A stretch of 34,241 bases of DNA, taken from a virus. Location of the stretch: the IMG/VR virus record IMGVR_UViG_3300021963_000390, positions 1-34,241 of that record. One strand, 5' to 3'. The notes under the pieces are model-generated. The model was not told the DNA's origin and searched no databases. It saw nothing but the letters and a program-made list of their open reading frames with translations. This document shows positions 7,114 to 14,974 of the stretch, in pieces. Numbering within the stretch: position 1 is the stretch's first letter; each line of letters opens with the position of its first letter. The translations under genes and the position numbers were made by a program.

Positions 7114-9465
7114 CTATCTCCTGCCGTCAGGACGCACTTCGATTCTTGGCACACCCAACTGCCACTGAACACCAAGAGTGCTAGATGAAATTTTAAACGC
7201 CATCTGTCGTCCACGAATACGTACATAAATCTGTTCAGTAAACAACTGCACGTTATAGACATTTGCACTTGCAAACGATTGCGAACTTGCAACGCTCCTA
7301 ATGTCTGCCGAACCGTAGTTTGAACCGGGGAAAGCACGCGGTCTTACAGTAAAGTCAACAGAAGGCGCTACCACTGTGGAACTATCAAAGGTAATGTCTG
7401 GGATAAGACGCCAAACAAAACCAAAGTTATGCCCGTCTCCAATATCAAAATCAGATGATTGAACATATGCCTCTATAACAACTGGGGTTGCAGTCTCGTT
7501 ATTGTCTACAGTTGTTTCGTGATAAACCAAATCTGCGTTTTGATACTCGTTGTTAGCGTTGTACCCAATAGCCGCAATAGGTTGTGCGCGTAGTGGGCTA
7601 TCTAACCAAGCCGTACGTGGGCGTGCGGTAGTGCAATTAAACGTGCCGTAGTACCAAATTTTTTCTAGGTGGTTGTAAATTACGTAGCGGTCAACTAAAC
7701 GATTGGGAGCCGCCGCTGTGCCTGTGCTGTTTCCCCCAGTAGACGTAGTGCCTGTAATAGAACAATAGAACCACCACACTTCGCTGTAACCTTCATTCGA
7801 GCCAGCGCAGAACTGATACGACTCAGTTAAATTAATGTTGTCAAATACAAATTGGCGCAAAGAACAGGGAAGGGTTTCAATCCGTCCAGAGTAGACATAG
7901 AACTTATCTGCACCCATCCAGTAAGTGACGTTGTTTACCACAGCAACCGTGTTAGGCCCAGCAATAGAAATATTGTCGCCAAGAAGTTGATTACCCCAGA
8001 CATACGGAGCGCCAAGGTATTGAAACGAGTAAAGCGCAGAATCAGTAAAGACCAATATCTCTTGCCGTGTTTGTATGGCAGTAATAATTTGTGAGCCGTG
8101 GCTTAGTCGGATACCACCTGCTTGGTTAGTGATAGCGGGTGTCCATGTAGCTACGTTGTTTTGGTCAGACCAGCGAACCTGCATTGGGTCTTGGGCTACC
8201 GTGGCGTACACACCAGTTGGGTCGTTTGTACCAAAAGCAAAAGTAAACCGCGACGAATCTGAGATTAAAACAAAGTTAACAATAGTTGGGCAAGTTGCGT
8301 CTGGCGTTAATGTGCCTGCTTTGGTAACTATGCCTGTAGCTGCTTTAATAATTTGGCAACGGTCATAGATGTTAGGGCTGGCGTTATTAGCCCAGTAATA
8401 CATAGCCCCACCACGAGGGTTAATAACTAAATCTTCCCCGTAGTTAGACTGACTCCACAGGCGCAACTGGATACCGATACCTGTAGTTGCAGGAGAACCC
8501 CAGCCAGTAGCTGTAGTAGGGTATTGAAAGACAGCATCGCCACTGTTATGTATTGTTGCAGTACTACTTGGAATTCCTGTTCCGCCAGCAGCACGGGTAA
8601 TGCCGTCAAAAGTTGCAGGAGAAGCAGTAACGCTTGCGTATGCAATACCTTCGGTACCGATAAAAATAGTCCCACTAGCAGCAAAACCTGTAACAGAAGC
8701 CACAGCTATATTAGCCGTAGAAGCAGCAGATATAGTAGCAGTAAGTGTTGTTGTAAAAGAAGGCCCAGTAGAACCGCCCCAGCCACCAGCACCCCAGCCT
8801 GTACCAAGCGTAAATGTTGTGAAACCCGTGGTTAATTGATAGTTAAATGTAGCGGTAACAGCAGATGTGCCAGTAGAAGTCGCCGTTCCACCCGCAATGA
8901 TTGTGTAGGTGTTGTTACTGGTAACAGTCTGTATTTGAAACTCTTTATTAGTTAACTGGGCGACAGTTATGCCGTTAACAGTGCCAGATACGCTAGAAAT
9001 ATTTACAAAATCCCCTGCCTGCGCTCCGTGTCCGGGGTCGTTAACTGTGACAGTTGCTGAAGTGTTGGTCGTAGTAAAGGCGTTGGCTACAGCCGTATTA
9101 GTGTCACGAATAGGAGTCACATCATTGTACGAACCACCAGAAGAATTTTGTATGTAGTATTTAAGGTTTGTGCCAAGACCTAGTAAGTTGTAACCTGTTA
9201 AGTTAATCCAATTCCACAAACCTTTGGTTATGCCCCAATACACCCCGTTGGTGACTGTGGCTTGCGTAGACGTTCCCCCAGAAGTAAACGTACCTGTTGG
9301 ACAAGTGGAAGAGGCAGTTCCAGCATCTTTTTGCCAGCCGCCAATCTTCTCAGGATAGCCAGAGCGGAAACGAATCTTGTCGCCGTCAAAGTAACCGCCC
9401 TCATTGGCAAGAGTTGTGCCTTCGCGGTTGACTCCCGGTCTTAGTTGTAGTTTTTGTAATGGCAT
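7114..9465 (-). CDS. Tail nozzle / DNA stabilisation protein (P22 gp10-like, probable)
   Basis: A 783-aa protein. The N terminus MPLQKLQLRPGVNREGTTLA, then FDGDKIRFRSGYPEKIGGWQ, is a signature of large tail proteins of aquatic podoviruses that resemble P22 gp10 or T7 gp12, which complete the tail tube and keep DNA in the head. The body has beta-propeller-like repeated strands. Two small modules are inserted near the N terminus: about 130-205 (VNDPGHGAQAGDFVNISSVS) and 240-314 (GTIFIGTEGIAYASVT; GITRAAGGTG), each with a relative in another virion protein here. The C-terminal third is less repetitive. Family call is by pattern, not search. Confidence 0.75.
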   Translation of the reverse strand: MPLQKLQLRPGVNREGTTLANEGGYFDGDKIRFRSGYPEKIGGWQKDAGTASSTCPTGTFTSGGTSTQATVTNGVYWGITKGLWNWINLTGYNLLGLGTNLKYYIQNSSGGSYNDVTPIRDTNTAVANAFTTTNTSATVTVNDPGHGAQAGDFVNISSVSGTVNGITVAQLTNKEFQIQTVTSNNTYTIIAGGTATSTGTSAVTATFNYQLTTGFTTFTLGTGWGAGGWGGSTGPSFTTTLTATISAASTANIAVASVTGFAASGTIFIGTEGIAYASVTASPATFDGITRAAGGTGIPSSTATIHNSGDAVFQYPTTATGWGSPATTGIGIQLRLWSQSNYGEDLVINPRGGAMYYWANNASPNIYDRCQIIKAATGIVTKAGTLTPDATCPTIVNFVLISDSSRFTFAFGTNDPTGVYATVAQDPMQVRWSDQNNVATWTPAITNQAGGIRLSHGSQIITAIQTRQEILVFTDSALYSFQYLGAPYVWGNQLLGDNISIAGPNTVAVVNNVTYWMGADKFYVYSGRIETLPCSLRQFVFDNINLTESYQFCAGSNEGYSEVWWFYCSITGTTSTGGNSTGTAAAPNRLVDRYVIYNHLEKIWYYGTFNCTTARPRTAWLDSPLRAQPIAAIGYNANNEYQNADLVYHETTVDNNETATPVVIEAYVQSSDFDIGDGHNFGFVWRLIPDITFDSSTVVAPSVDFTVRPRAFPGSNYGSADIRSVASSQSFASANVYNVQLFTEQIYVRIRGRQMAFKISSSTLGVQWQLGVPRIEVRPDGRR

Positions 9466-9466
9466 A

Positions 9467-9919
9467 TTACTTTGCGTGGTATTGGGCTTCTGTCAGGATG
9501 CCAAGTTTGTATTTTCCCTCTGGCTTGTAAATTGTCAACTCTTGCTGACGCATCTCAGGCGCAAAGGATATGTGCATCCACCGACCGTATTCGTGAATCA
9601 TTTGGTCAAACTTAATGCCCGCCTTTATAACAAGCTGACATACTTCGTAAGGAGTGTGAGCAGAAGAAGAGCAGTCAATAGCCCAACCATCCATGTGGCT
9701 GGATACCTTAGAACCGCCAACAGCCACGTTGACATCAGGCAAGCGTAACCAAGAATTAACACGAAGAGCGCCTGTGACATTTCGCACCTCCTCCAACTGC
9801 TGTGCAGCCGACTTCATGTTTGCCATCTGTTGTTCATTGGGCTGATTGTTTATATTCATACGTATAGCAGTCTCGCTGTACGTCGCCTCGTCAAGGGTGA
9901 AGTGTTCGCTAAGGTTCAT
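9467..9919 (-). CDS. Endolysin, peptidase M15 family
   Basis: A 150-aa peptidoglycan peptidase. Seen: SSHMDGWAIDC around residues 73-83, giving the conserved SxHxxGxAxD zinc motif (H75, D82), and IHEYGRWMHISF at 108-119, with catalytic Glu110 and third zinc ligand His116. This is the VanY/L-alanyl-D-glutamate peptidase fold that many phages use as endolysin, cutting peptide cross-bridges or stems. No signal peptide is present, so export through the holin next door is expected. All active-site residues are intact. Confidence 0.9.
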   Translation of the reverse strand: MNLSEHFTLDEATYSETAIRMNINNQPNEQQMANMKSAAQQLEEVRNVTGALRVNSWLRLPDVNVAVGGSKVSSHMDGWAIDCSSSAHTPYEVCQLVIKAGIKFDQMIHEYGRWMHISFAPEMRQQELTIYKPEGKYKLGILTEAQYHAK

Positions 9920-10317
9920 TTTTTACCCTTTTGCATATCTATGATTTTCTCTAGCGTTCTACCGCCAAAGTAAAACGACATAATTAACATGCCCCACTGA
10001 CCAAGCAACTCCACATAGTTGTTATTGACTTCAACATCCCATGCAGACATCATCGCAAAGGTTGTGTAGGTAATTAGGATAAACACCAAGGTCATAGGAC
10101 GAATGTTCTTAGACAGCCAAGAGTCGCTACCCATGTCTGCTTTGAGGCGCTCAGTCAACTCATGTTGCTCAGACACATCGGCATTGAGTTTTGCCAACTC
10201 ACCGTTTTGTTGCATCTCAAGCAGTTTGAGTTTGGCTTGCTCTGCCTGTGCTGGGTCAGGAAATACCTTATCTAGTATCTTTCCACCAATGTCTAAAAGT
10301 GCGCCGATAGGTATCAT
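9916..10317 (-). CDS. Holin, 3TM/GTA-like family (probable)
   Basis: A 133-aa protein. It begins MIPIGALLDIGGKILDKVFP and continues DPAQAEQAKLKLLEMQ, a pattern I know from holins of the gene-transfer-agent 3TM type, then a helical Glu/Lys region, SWLSKNIRPMTLVFILITY with a first membrane segment, and a second hydrophobic stretch (LGQWGMLIMSFYFGG). Holins form lethal lesions in the inner membrane, timing endolysin release. It is adjacent to the peptidase with an ATGA overlap, the classic holin-endolysin pair. Confidence 0.78.
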   Translation of the reverse strand: MIPIGALLDIGGKILDKVFPDPAQAEQAKLKLLEMQQNGELAKLNADVSEQHELTERLKADMGSDSWLSKNIRPMTLVFILITYTTFAMMSAWDVEVNNNYVELLGQWGMLIMSFYFGGRTLEKIIDMQKGKK

Positions 10318-10640
10318 TTCTTGGCTCCAATCTTTGTTTCAATAACTGCAATGTGCATACGATTGACTTGGATGTCATCACGATTCTTTTGAATTTCTTT
10401 TTCTAAATCTTGGCGTAACTTCTCACGGGCTAACTCGGCGCCAGTATTGGTCGCCTGTTTATTGTCGGATGTCACCACAAGGCTAATCTTGCTGTTTAGG
10501 ATAGTCACTTCATGCGCCAAATTAGACAAGGCACTCATCAGATAGACAACGCAGGAAAACAAAAGCGGGAGAAGTGCAAATGTAATCTTTTCAATCAGTT
10601 GGTTTTTTGCTTCCATCGACTGTATTTTTTCCTCGCTCAT
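10314..10640 (-). CDS. Membrane/coiled-coil protein in lysis cassette
   Basis: A 108-aa protein with one transmembrane helix (ITFALLPLLFSCVVYLMSAL, about 19-38) and a C-terminal coiled coil of about 60 residues (LAREKLRQDLEKEIQKNRDD). The layout fits an inner-membrane spanin-like or antiholin protein, or a small tail-membrane contact protein. It is joined by ATGA overlaps to both the 58-aa gene and the holin, and it precedes the endolysin, so lysis control is the best inference. Confidence 0.68.
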   Translation of the reverse strand: MSEEKIQSMEAKNQLIEKITFALLPLLFSCVVYLMSALSNLAHEVTILNSKISLVVTSDNKQATNTGAELAREKLRQDLEKEIQKNRDDIQVNRMHIAVIETKIGAKK

Positions 10641-11487: not shown

Positions 11488-13020
11488 TTAGGTTTTGATA
11501 ATGAAGTGGATACCAAGAAATGGCGAGATAGTGGGTACCGTTGTACCAGAACCTGTACTACCTATGGTTGTGGTTAGGCTTGCAAATCCTGTTTGCGTGA
11601 CTTGTACCGAAGAAGATTGGTCGCCAAAATCAGCAACAGTCGGGCCTGATGGTTGTCCTGTTATTTGATACGCTCGACCAACAGCGTGTGTGTGACCTGC
11701 GTCTGTTGTTGTTGCAGAGTGGCTATGGCTTGGTATGTTTGTCGCTGCTAGCGTAGTTGTTGCCGCACCGCCAGTAGAAGCTAAAGTAAGAGCAGCCTGA
11801 GTTCCTGTAATAGCCGTACTTGATACTGCTTGAGAAACGCTAACCGTGTAATCCCCTATACCCCCAAATGTCCCAGAAACAAAGCCAGTAATAATTGTTC
11901 CAGATGATATACCTGTACCAGTAATAACTTGATTTATTGCCAATGCGCCTGACGCCACCGCTGTTACAGTCAAAGTTGTAGAAGCAATAGAACCCGTAAA
12001 CCCAGAAGAAGTACCCGCAGTAACACCAATAGGCATACTACCGCTGAAGTTAGGCAGGTTAAATGTTGTTGAGCCGTCGCCTACACCGAAAGTTGTAGCT
12101 ATAAGAGCAAACAACGCAGAATAAGTTGCCCTACTAACCGCAGTTCCATTACAAAATAAATAGCCTGTAGGCGCGGAGGCTACGCCCCACATAAAAATAG
12201 AGCCTGTTGGAGCGCCAGTTGATTTGGCGAATGATGTAGTTGCTATATTGGTTGAGTCGTCAACAATATTAGTGGTAGTAGACGTTGCTCCAGCAGCACC
12301 CGTCATTGCTGTACCAGTTAAAACAGATTGGGAAATACTAACCGTGTAAATTCCAATACCCCCAAGTGTTCCAGAAACAAATGCTGTAATTTGGGTGTTG
12401 GCAGTAACACCAACTCCAGTTATAAACTGCCCAACATAAAGAGTACCACTTGCTACAGCAGATACATTTAAAACCGTACCAGCACCGCCAGCACCGTTAG
12501 ATATAGTTGCCGTAAAACTTGTCTGAGCGTGCGCTTTAATAGACCCTGCGGTTAAAACATCTCCTACAGTTAAATCTTCCCCTACGGTTAAATCTTTCAT
12601 GTAATTAGTGGCTACCACAATATCTGTACCAGCGCTGTTCATCACCAAAGCAACTTTGGCTCCCATAGGCACGGAAACACCAGTCTGCCCAGATACTTTG
12701 ACTGTTATTGCAAACCCACCTGTGGTGGCGTTGGATATGAAGTACAGTTTTTTATTGGTTGGAACAATTAAACTACGCGCCGCTGTTAGAGCGCCAGTGC
12801 ACTCAATAAACATGTTTCTTGCGTTGTTTGTTGCAGTTGACGCGCCACTGGTTATTGTCATGGTCTGGTCTGCATCAGCCATAGCCTGCGTTACCACCCC
12901 AGATATAGCTTGCTCAATTAGAGTGCCGAGGTTGGAGTTGGTCGTAGACCCCCAGTTACCAGCTTGGTCGCCAGAACCAATAAGCTCAATGCCTAGGTTG
13001 GTTGAATAGGTACTTGACAT
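11488..13020 (-). CDS. Tail collar fibre protein with inserted beta domain
   Basis: A 510-aa protein. Residues 1-140 are an N-terminal beta attachment domain ([20 protein letters not shown]). Residues 168-241 are a beta module ([27 protein letters not shown]). A phage tail-collar domain starts at 271 ([40 protein letters not shown]), is interrupted by a second copy of the module at about 338-408, and resumes at 411 ([20 protein letters not shown], then SHSHS and GHTHA, typical metal-binding His motifs of collar/needle fibres). Host receptor binding is the known role of collar-domain fibres. Good AAGGAT site before ATG. Confidence 0.85.
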
Positions 13021-13023
13021 AGT

Positions 13024-13293
13024 TTATCCTTTTGGGTATTTAGCTTTGACCGCTTGGCAGTCGGCTATGTATTTGGCAATCTGCGCTTGGTCATCTTTGA
13101 CTACGCCGTCTAAGTAGTCAGTCATGGGTGGGTACTCTGCTTGGCGTTTGGCTATGTAGGCTTCTGGGTCAGTCCATGCGTTGACTGCGTTCATATCAAT
13201 TTCAACTTTATTTCCATCTTTATCAAATGCACCTACGCTGTCAGAAATAGTGACAACATTTGTGTAAAGAGCATAAATTGCTTTGTGGTTCAT
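13024..13293 (-). CDS. Fibre-partner / tail assembly-like small protein (cassette 3)
   Basis: An 89-aa protein from ATG 13293, chosen because it makes an ATGA overlap with the preceding stop; extension to 13338 would only add codons antiparallel in role to the upstream gene. It reads MNHKAIYALYTNVVTISDSV, then NAVNAWTDPEAYIAKRQAEY, PPMTDYLDGVVKDDQ and IADCQAVKAKYPKG. The YPPMTDYLDGVVK stretch resembles phage tail assembly chaperone-like proteins. It directly precedes the collar fibre. Confidence 0.68.
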   Translation of the reverse strand: MNHKAIYALYTNVVTISDSVGAFDKDGNKVEIDMNAVNAWTDPEAYIAKRQAEYPPMTDYLDGVVKDDQAQIAKYIADCQAVKAKYPKG

Positions 13294-13865
13294 GCCGCTA
13301 TCTCCATTACCGTAATCGTTGAAGAAAATCTTGGACAAATAATTGAGTCAGCATCATTCTGAGTTCTGTTTAAGTATACTGGCTGACCAGAAGCATCTGT
13401 ACCCAAATTTACTTGATAGGTTGTTGATGAAGTTGTTGACGGAGAATCTAAAAAAGAAAAAGATACAGGAACTGCGGTGTTTACATCGTTGTAATAACCT
13501 CTTGCGTTTATGCCGGGTCTACCTCCCGACCCAGTTCCAGCCCCTATTACTGTTGAACTTCTAAGTAGCAAAACTATTGCTTGTGCAGTAGCAGCCGTAC
13601 CATTCATACCGCCAATATTTACAGCTACAAGAATTTTACTTGTTGCATTTGATGGCGTAATTGATGCAGATAATCCAGTTACAGCGGCACCCGTAGCAGT
13701 TAATGAGCCACCAGAAGCAGTAACAGTAGTACTTGTAGAAAATGTAGTAGTCAATGTTGTGCTTACCACTTGCAATACCCTACCAGAAGATGCTTGCACC
13801 GCAGAAGCACTACCCGCTGTTACTGGGAATGTAATACCGGCAGTTCCATCAATAAGTACAGTCAT
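13290..13865 (-). CDS. Fibre/tail-tip beta protein (cassette 3)
   Basis: A 191-aa protein: MTVLIDGTAGITFPVTAGSA at the N terminus, a form seen in many phage fibre-associated proteins, then VTGLSASITPSNATSKILVA and NIGG, and a C-terminal part QPVYLNRTQNDADSIICPRF with strands. The TPSNATSKILV element is a recurrent phage structural domain, probably a jelly-roll. It is coupled to neighbours by TAATG and ATGA. Confidence 0.72.
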   Translation of the reverse strand: MTVLIDGTAGITFPVTAGSASAVQASSGRVLQVVSTTLTTTFSTSTTVTASGGSLTATGAAVTGLSASITPSNATSKILVAVNIGGMNGTAATAQAIVLLLRSSTVIGAGTGSGGRPGINARGYYNDVNTAVPVSFSFLDSPSTTSSTTYQVNLGTDASGQPVYLNRTQNDADSIICPRFSSTITVMEIAA

Positions 13866-14113
13866 TATGAAATCCCCAGTGCCTGTTTAAGTTTTGCCAA
13901 CTCTGTTGGATTGGCAATAATTTGTTCCGCTAGGCTTAGTACAGGCACATCCACTACTACTAATGGAACAGGGCTGATGAACACACCGTCAATAAACTTA
14001 TGTTGCGTTGTAATATCTTCGGTACAGTCAACCCATATTAACGCTTCATGTACTGGAAAGGTGTTGGCGCGAATTTCCGCTATGCGCCCAGATGGTTCAA
14101 TAAGTGCTTTCAT
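13865..14113 (-). CDS. Fibre-partner small protein (cassette 2)
   Basis: An 82-aa protein: MKALIEPSGRIAEIRANTFP, a beta region EALIWVDCTEDITTQHKFID, and the shared C-terminal tag IIANPTELAKLKQALGIS. Only the tag is clearly like the protein at 14921-15190; the body differs. This suggests a conserved docking helix with variable bodies. Overlaps the fibre above by ATGA and the next by TAATG. Confidence 0.68.
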   Translation of the reverse strand: MKALIEPSGRIAEIRANTFPVHEALIWVDCTEDITTQHKFIDGVFISPVPLVVVDVPVLSLAEQIIANPTELAKLKQALGIS

Positions 14114-14974
14114 ACGTAAAACTCCTCTACAACGACAATTCCAGCAGCGCCATTACCACCGGAAACCGCACCTTGCCCGCCAAGACTAGCGCCGCCACCG
14201 CCGCCCGCCCCATATTGAGTAGCCGCCGCCGAGATTGCGCTACTCTGCACCCCTTCAGGGCCTGCACATAAAAAAGAAGCACCTCCACTTCCTCCTACAC
14301 CCCTATTAGGGGAGGCAAAAGAAAAACCAAATCCACCAGAACCGCCTGTTAGGTTAAAACTTCCGCCAGAACCAACGCCTCCTGTAGATGTAGAGCCGCC
14401 TTCGGTGTTTTGACCTGTATTTGAAATTGTTGGACAACCTAATCCAGCACTGCCGCCCGTGGCGGAACAATGTGAGCCAAAACTAGATGTGCCGCCCGCG
14501 CTTCCGTTGCCACCGCTAGTCCCGCCGCCACCAAGCGCACCAACAGTGACTGTTTCGGTAGCACCAACTGAGGAAGCACTAATAATTTCAATAGCCGTAC
14601 CACCACCACCACCTCCTGTGGCGGCAGAATTAAATCCACCTGCGTTTGCTGCCGCACTGCCACCTCCACCACCACCGCCAACTACCGTTACTTTGATAGA
14701 TTTAACACCGCTTGGTTTTGTGTAAGTACTAGTACCAGAGGCAGTAAAGACTTGAATCGTTGTACCGCCCGCCACAGCATTTGTAAAAGTAACAATCTGT
14801 GCTGCACTAATACTTACCGCAGTCGTTTCATTAGTTTGAATATTTAGGATGCCGCTGTCATCTCCCGTAGAGATTAGCCCCCCGTTATTTGTGCTTGTGC
14901 CGTTAATGCTTGATGCCATGCTAGATTCCTAACGCTTGTTTAAGTTTTGCTAACTCTGTTGGGTTAGCAAGAAT
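13883..14974. repeat. Duplicated DNA encoding the partner C-terminal tag
   Basis: The segments near 13883-13914 and 14937-14968 share TGTTTAAGTTTTGC and AACTCTGTTGG with few changes, encoding ANPTELAKLKQAL in both partner genes. The span given covers both copies and the fibre gene between; only the ends are the repeat. It marks a past cassette duplication. Confidence 0.6.
14110..14919 (-). CDS. Glycine-rich tail fibre / adhesin (cassette 2)
   Basis: A 269-aa protein with an N-terminal segment like that of many phage fibres (GILNIQTNETTAVSISAAQ), then IQVFTASGTSTYTKPSGVKS, equivalent to QVFTSASGTYTTPTGCK in cassette 1, then long Gly runs and a closing AAGIVVVEEFYV, equivalent to SGIIIVMEYY. 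It is therefore a paralogue of the 15192-15905 fibre with an expanded Gly domain containing several Cys and Ser. The start is 1 base after the stop of the upstream gene, and the stop overlaps the next gene by ATGA. Confidence 0.75.
   Translation of the reverse strand: MASSINGTSTNNGGLISTGDDSGILNIQTNETTAVSISAAQIVTFTNAVAGGTTIQVFTASGTSTYTKPSGVKSIKVTVVGGGGGGGSAAANAGGFNSAATGGGGGGTAIEIISASSVGATETVTVGALGGGGTSGGNGSAGGTSSFGSHCSATGGSAGLGCPTISNTGQNTEGGSTSTGGVGSGGSFNLTGGSGGFGFSFASPNRGVGGSGGASFLCAGPEGVQSSAISAAATQYGAGGGGGASLGGQGAVSGGNGAAGIVVVEEFYV

Follow-up and report, generated by a model that had tools for sequence, protein, structure and literature searches.

The fibre gene and its neighbourhood

The window, by which we mean the whole stretch of DNA analysed here, is a virus record of 34,241 bases and encodes terminase, major head, portal, tail, fibre and lysis genes. 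One of its minus-strand genes encodes a tail-collar fibre protein, in which the following features were delineated:

11488..13020, minus strand: tail-collar fibre gene, 510 aa (open reading frame; PF07484; PHROG tail families)
12652..13020, minus strand: N-terminal domain, aa 1-123 (phrog_31104, E 2e-20; alignments), common to the relatives L322 and L283
12304..12492, minus strand: beta-module copy 1, in the shaft, aa 177-239 (iterated HMM, E 3e-18)
12031..12204, minus strand: collar domain PF07484, aa 273-330 (Pfam, E 7e-22)
11809..11994, minus strand: beta-module copy 2, in the collar loop, aa 343-404 (iterated HMM, E 1e-21; missing in homologues)
11491..11787, minus strand: C-terminal collar/tip part, aa 412-510, after the insert (alignment; C-terminal end near-invariant)
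11686..11727, minus strand: two His-x-His motifs, the presumed tip, aa 432-434 and 443-445 (conserved alignment columns)

The collar profile is complete in this protein (77.6 bits against a cutoff of 24, positions 1-57 of 57 in Pfam), and the C-terminal region includes both His-x-His motifs and a terminal FIIKT. Collar fibres are trimers that bind receptors with their distal end, and the HxH motifs in such fibre tips bind metal; from what is known of the family, the collar is regarded as a receptor-binding fold. A tail needle offers a precedent for an iron-binding HxH motif (PMC11821841). Separate fibre genes adjoin at 14110-14919 (minus strand, glycine-rich PF21722 type) and 13290-13865 (minus strand, phrog_6942 type), so that the phage possesses several alternative or composite fibre tips. 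Endolysin and holin genes, together with a third small open reading frame, lie shortly downstream of the fibre cluster (9467-10640, minus strand).

An additional domain between collar and tip

The initial annotation had proposed that the pieces flanking copy 2 are normally contiguous parts of the collar fold, and that a whole domain was placed in a loop of this fold while its sibling resides in the shaft of the same protein. Alignments bear this out: the sibling occupies aa 177-239, and in insert-free homologues the C-terminal piece directly follows MPIGV, whereas in the window the flank resumes only after MPIGV and the insert, the matching stretch of L260 without an insert being MPIGVNTIAASVGATGGSATTTLTVSNLPSHSHS. 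The comparison with relatives suggested at that time showed the segment to be absent from L322, L241, L244, L260 and L240 as well as from the collar relatives L001-L005, and the segment is thus not a part of the core fold that all relatives carry. The insert itself looks like an autonomous domain and occurs in many unrelated proteins.

The length of the spacer, counted from where the collar match ends up to the first HxH, was compared among 145 non-identical collar proteins gathered by collar-only patterns and by the C-terminal half of the window protein. It amounts to 98 aa in the window, while the median is 24 aa and the 5th-95th percentile range is 17-56 aa. Copy 2 begins 13 residues past the end of PF07484. 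In place of the contiguous transition from the collar to HxH, which is usual but does not define the family in Pfam, a 62-aa module with its linkers is interposed. Given the complete collar profile and a spacer of this length, the assignment to PF07484 stands and the interposed segment is an insertion; in a set of 75 collars found without using the insert, a single one has the module at the collar loop. At the level of sequence, copy 2 is hence confirmed to lie between PF07484 and the His-x-His tip, interrupting the collar fold. AlphaFold2 gave low scores for the collar half as a monomer (pLDDT 52, pTM 0.22), as expected for an obligate trimer, and because this half could not be modelled in monomeric form, we infer the geometry of the insertion.

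Two trivial accounts were weighed against an insertion. The segment might be normal collar core, a variable region having been mistaken for an insert, and collar spacers do vary in length over the range given above. Nevertheless, the empty-site alignments are clean and a domain-sized homologous unit occurs elsewhere; this account is extremely improbable and is refuted by the empty loop of L322 and the alignment of the C-terminal flank. Alternatively, as the window is a record of an uncultured virus, metagenome assembly might have fused two genes artificially. This was rejected as hardly credible, since the insert is in frame and its sequence is not that of copy 1, and contigs from other samples (L283, L288, L018 and L110) show this architecture again.

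These relatives can be arranged in a natural series. L322 matches the window protein in N-terminus, shaft module and collar (41% identity over 417 aa), and its collar loop is empty. L283 and L288, whose N-terminal domain is 35% identical to that of the window, contain two modules in the collar loop and a shaft without module, while in L018 and L110 the collar is shortened and this site holds three modules. In L313 and L362, the same loop holds a module of about 80 aa that is unrelated in sequence; hhalign returned a probability of 0.5% for the comparison of the ~62-aa and ~80-aa families, indicating that they are unrelated. Occupied recurrently in three lineages, the loop thus acts repeatedly as an acceptor site, for two kinds of domain at least, and phage fibres evidently can accommodate a whole domain here. 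The ~80-aa family (TTSGxLPAGLxxxTxYxVIxVxxTTxKLATS...) was found in L313 (aa 236-314), L362 (aa 512-590), L282 (aa 137-215) and L020; their insertion sites lie in collar proteins, two of them in the same loop, and in L020 both kinds of module stand side by side.

A widespread module and the origin of its two copies

Searches with copy 2 as the query matched 64 viral loci. An iterated HMM identified 125 copies in 77 open reading frames, and 381 copies in 272 open reading frames over all collected loci; both fibre copies match it significantly over its length (E 3e-18 and 1e-21), while the best hit in a control with reversed open reading frames had an E-value of 0.55. The module pattern has at least 120 matches in the viral collection, and the module is therefore common. 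It is also found in bacterial and archaeal assemblies, where the carriers are presumably prophages. When the module was masked and the remaining protein clustered, the hosts fell into 67 unrelated clusters comprising capsid, decoration, adaptor, tube, sheath, baseplate and fibre proteins. According to Pfam and PHROG, nearly all of the host families are structural components of the virion; they include the SU10 adaptor, the T7-type tail tubular protein, DUF3383, sheath and tube proteins, lambda gpD, the HK97-type capsid, cement proteins, the T4 gp8-type wedge and fibres. In L013, L021, L026, L029 and about 26 other loci, one phage has copies of the module in two or three different virion genes. 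Within the window, the 783-aa virion protein encoded at 7114-9465 (minus strand) is related to those of L117 and L131, and in other phages members of this family have the module near aa 140-220; the window protein has a weak match to E1_FCCH at aa 137-196 (E 0.0045, below the cutoff), which is possibly another inserted module.

Among the collected sequences, module-free homologues reveal clean empty sites in about a dozen host clusters, with typically 65-75 residues present or absent. In the closest such pair, L124 and L083, the flanks are 83% and 78% identical, and the DNA-level alignment of the boundaries is too noisy to reveal target-site duplications. No recent transfer of the module between unrelated proteins, taken as more than 85% identity in DNA, was seen, the best value being 80%. 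Across divergent phages, the modules are intact and in frame at 35-70% identity, and tandem copies occur.

No model in Pfam or NCBIfam matches the module. The profiles of PHROG 21413 and PHROG 38233 do contain it, and all 51 modules tested match them. A tblastn search of cultured phages with the module alone returned no match, an uninformative absence, as the low-complexity filter of BLAST probably removes the module.

Copy 2 alone was modelled by AlphaFold2 from a 51-row alignment with high confidence (pLDDT 92.3, pTM 0.76), and the predicted strands span residues 2-10, 34-41 and 47-58. Foldseek located the module in many predicted viral proteins (TM 0.84-0.93 for the top eight), including the BFVD models of an HK97 capsid protein and a P22 Gp10 homologue (TM 0.86-0.89). 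A module-like domain was also noticed in a predicted collagen-repeat protein of the giant virus Indivirus (BFVD A0A1V0SCQ2; TM 0.86, 56% identity). Against solved structures, Foldseek found no significant match, the best being chain 1 of 8eci from Arthrobacter phage Bridgette (E 1.2, TM 0.60), and a sequence search of the PDB with the module profile produced chance-level matches only. The conserved residues are mainly glycines and beta/turn positions, which points to a scaffold rather than a binding site.

With regard to the two copies in the window, the initial annotation had described the module as duplicated and inserted. Its recurrence as copies of about 62 aa at aa 177-239 and 343-404 is secure, as the local BLOSUM62 score between them is 183, whereas the highest score among 500 shuffles is 81, and the insertion holds as well. 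Duplication within the gene, however, is unproven, because the copies are not nearest neighbours. They are 55% identical in amino acids and 59% in nucleotides over the module, and among about 320 other modules, 63 in amino acids and 16 in nucleotides are closer to copy 1 than copy 2 is. The exception to this overall divergence lies in the 3' half, where a 63-nt stretch with 81% identity may reflect local gene conversion between the copies. Identical fourfold sites are more frequent among modules of the same locus than of different loci (0.40 versus 0.28), a comparison confounded by base composition.

A simple intragenic duplication, in which the collar loop received a copy of the shaft module from within its own gene without wider significance, would account for the FVSGT.GGIG stretch common to both copies, and the 63-nt stretch could be a trace of such copying or of gene conversion. 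We nevertheless consider it clearly unlikely: besides the 63 modules nearer to copy 1 over the whole module, the L322 shaft module resembles copy 2 (69%) more than copy 1 (57%), and L283 has loop modules and no shaft module. Judged from these identities, independent acquisition followed by limited exchange, albeit not proved, fits better than straight duplication.

Proposed role and comparison with known systems

We propose, with reasonable though not full confidence, that copy 2 is a promiscuous, self-folding beta-module that entered a tolerant surface loop of the collar in frame and is displayed around the tip as an accessory adhesion or spacer surface. On the fibre, the module would fold independently and, the loop presumably being exposed, would leave the collar fold intact. 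A trimeric fibre would then present three loop modules around its receptor-binding tip, where they could act as a low-affinity adhesion or spacer surface, as is thought for Ig-like domains. By this analogy, the module probably serves as an exposed domain for adhesion or spacing. Its spread between phages would probably have proceeded by illegitimate or short-homology recombination, and no dedicated transposition machinery is indicated.

It may instead be a neutral passenger, i.e. a recombination-prone and tolerated beta segment that spreads by folding without disturbing its host and brings no benefit to the virion. The hosts are indeed very different, and the conserved residues of the module are structural; this reading still stands, since adhesion makes less sense for the several hosts that are neck or tube proteins. 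A pure passenger should decay, whereas the modules stay intact and in frame at 35-70% identity and even occur in tandem, and we regard this alternative as rather unlikely. We tentatively raise the possibility that the collar loop is a standard acceptor socket, and that the module is one of at least two unrelated plug-ins exchanged there and in fixed loops of head, neck, tail and baseplate proteins, by which phages would tune the virion surface independently of the core folds.

That phage protein domains are shuffled is already well established (PMC10684548). Fragments shared between unrelated phage proteins are enriched in receptor-binding proteins, as described in a survey based on ECOD domains and protein-level HMM overlap (PMC10684548); the spread of the module belongs to the same general process, and the passages of that survey searched here do not name it. 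In the literature covered, which is partial and in which motif strings are rarely printed, we found neither a description of the module nor the collar loop treated as a shared acceptor site, and for these reasons priority is not claimed. What emerges is a very common virion module outside all Pfam and NCBIfam models, which matters for annotation because it creates false similarity between unrelated phage proteins. PHROG 21413 and PHROG 38233 include it as whole-protein families that have neither a named function nor a definition of the module.

The Ig-like domain is a seven-stranded beta-sandwich of about 80-100 aa, and weak binding of carbohydrate or mucin is an expected trait of such domains in phages. 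An earlier survey found them in 25% of tailed phages; the virion proteins concerned belong to the same classes as those carrying the module, i.e. fibres, baseplate, tail, head and decoration proteins (PMC7602432). Both are small beta-domains that occur as accessories in many virion protein classes, and the Ig-like ones have been proposed to aid adhesion. In contrast, the module comprises about 62 aa with three predicted strands (pLDDT 92), which departs from the Ig fold; it has no convincing match among solved structures and no match to an Ig-like profile in Pfam or NCBIfam, and it often lies inside a domain loop rather than being appended. The module may thus work like the promiscuous Ig-like domains, yet it did not qualify as one by either sequence or fold.

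Known PF07484 collar proteins, such as T4 gp12 (1ocy) and a long tail fibre (PDB 8kec), combine an N-terminal attachment part, the collar and a His-x-His C-terminus ending in FIIKT, as does the protein encoded in the window. The latter differs in that the loop between collar and tip contains an extra domain, which most homologues lack, and together with L322 and L283 it provides a natural set, with and without the insert, for the effect of an inserted domain beside a receptor-binding tip.
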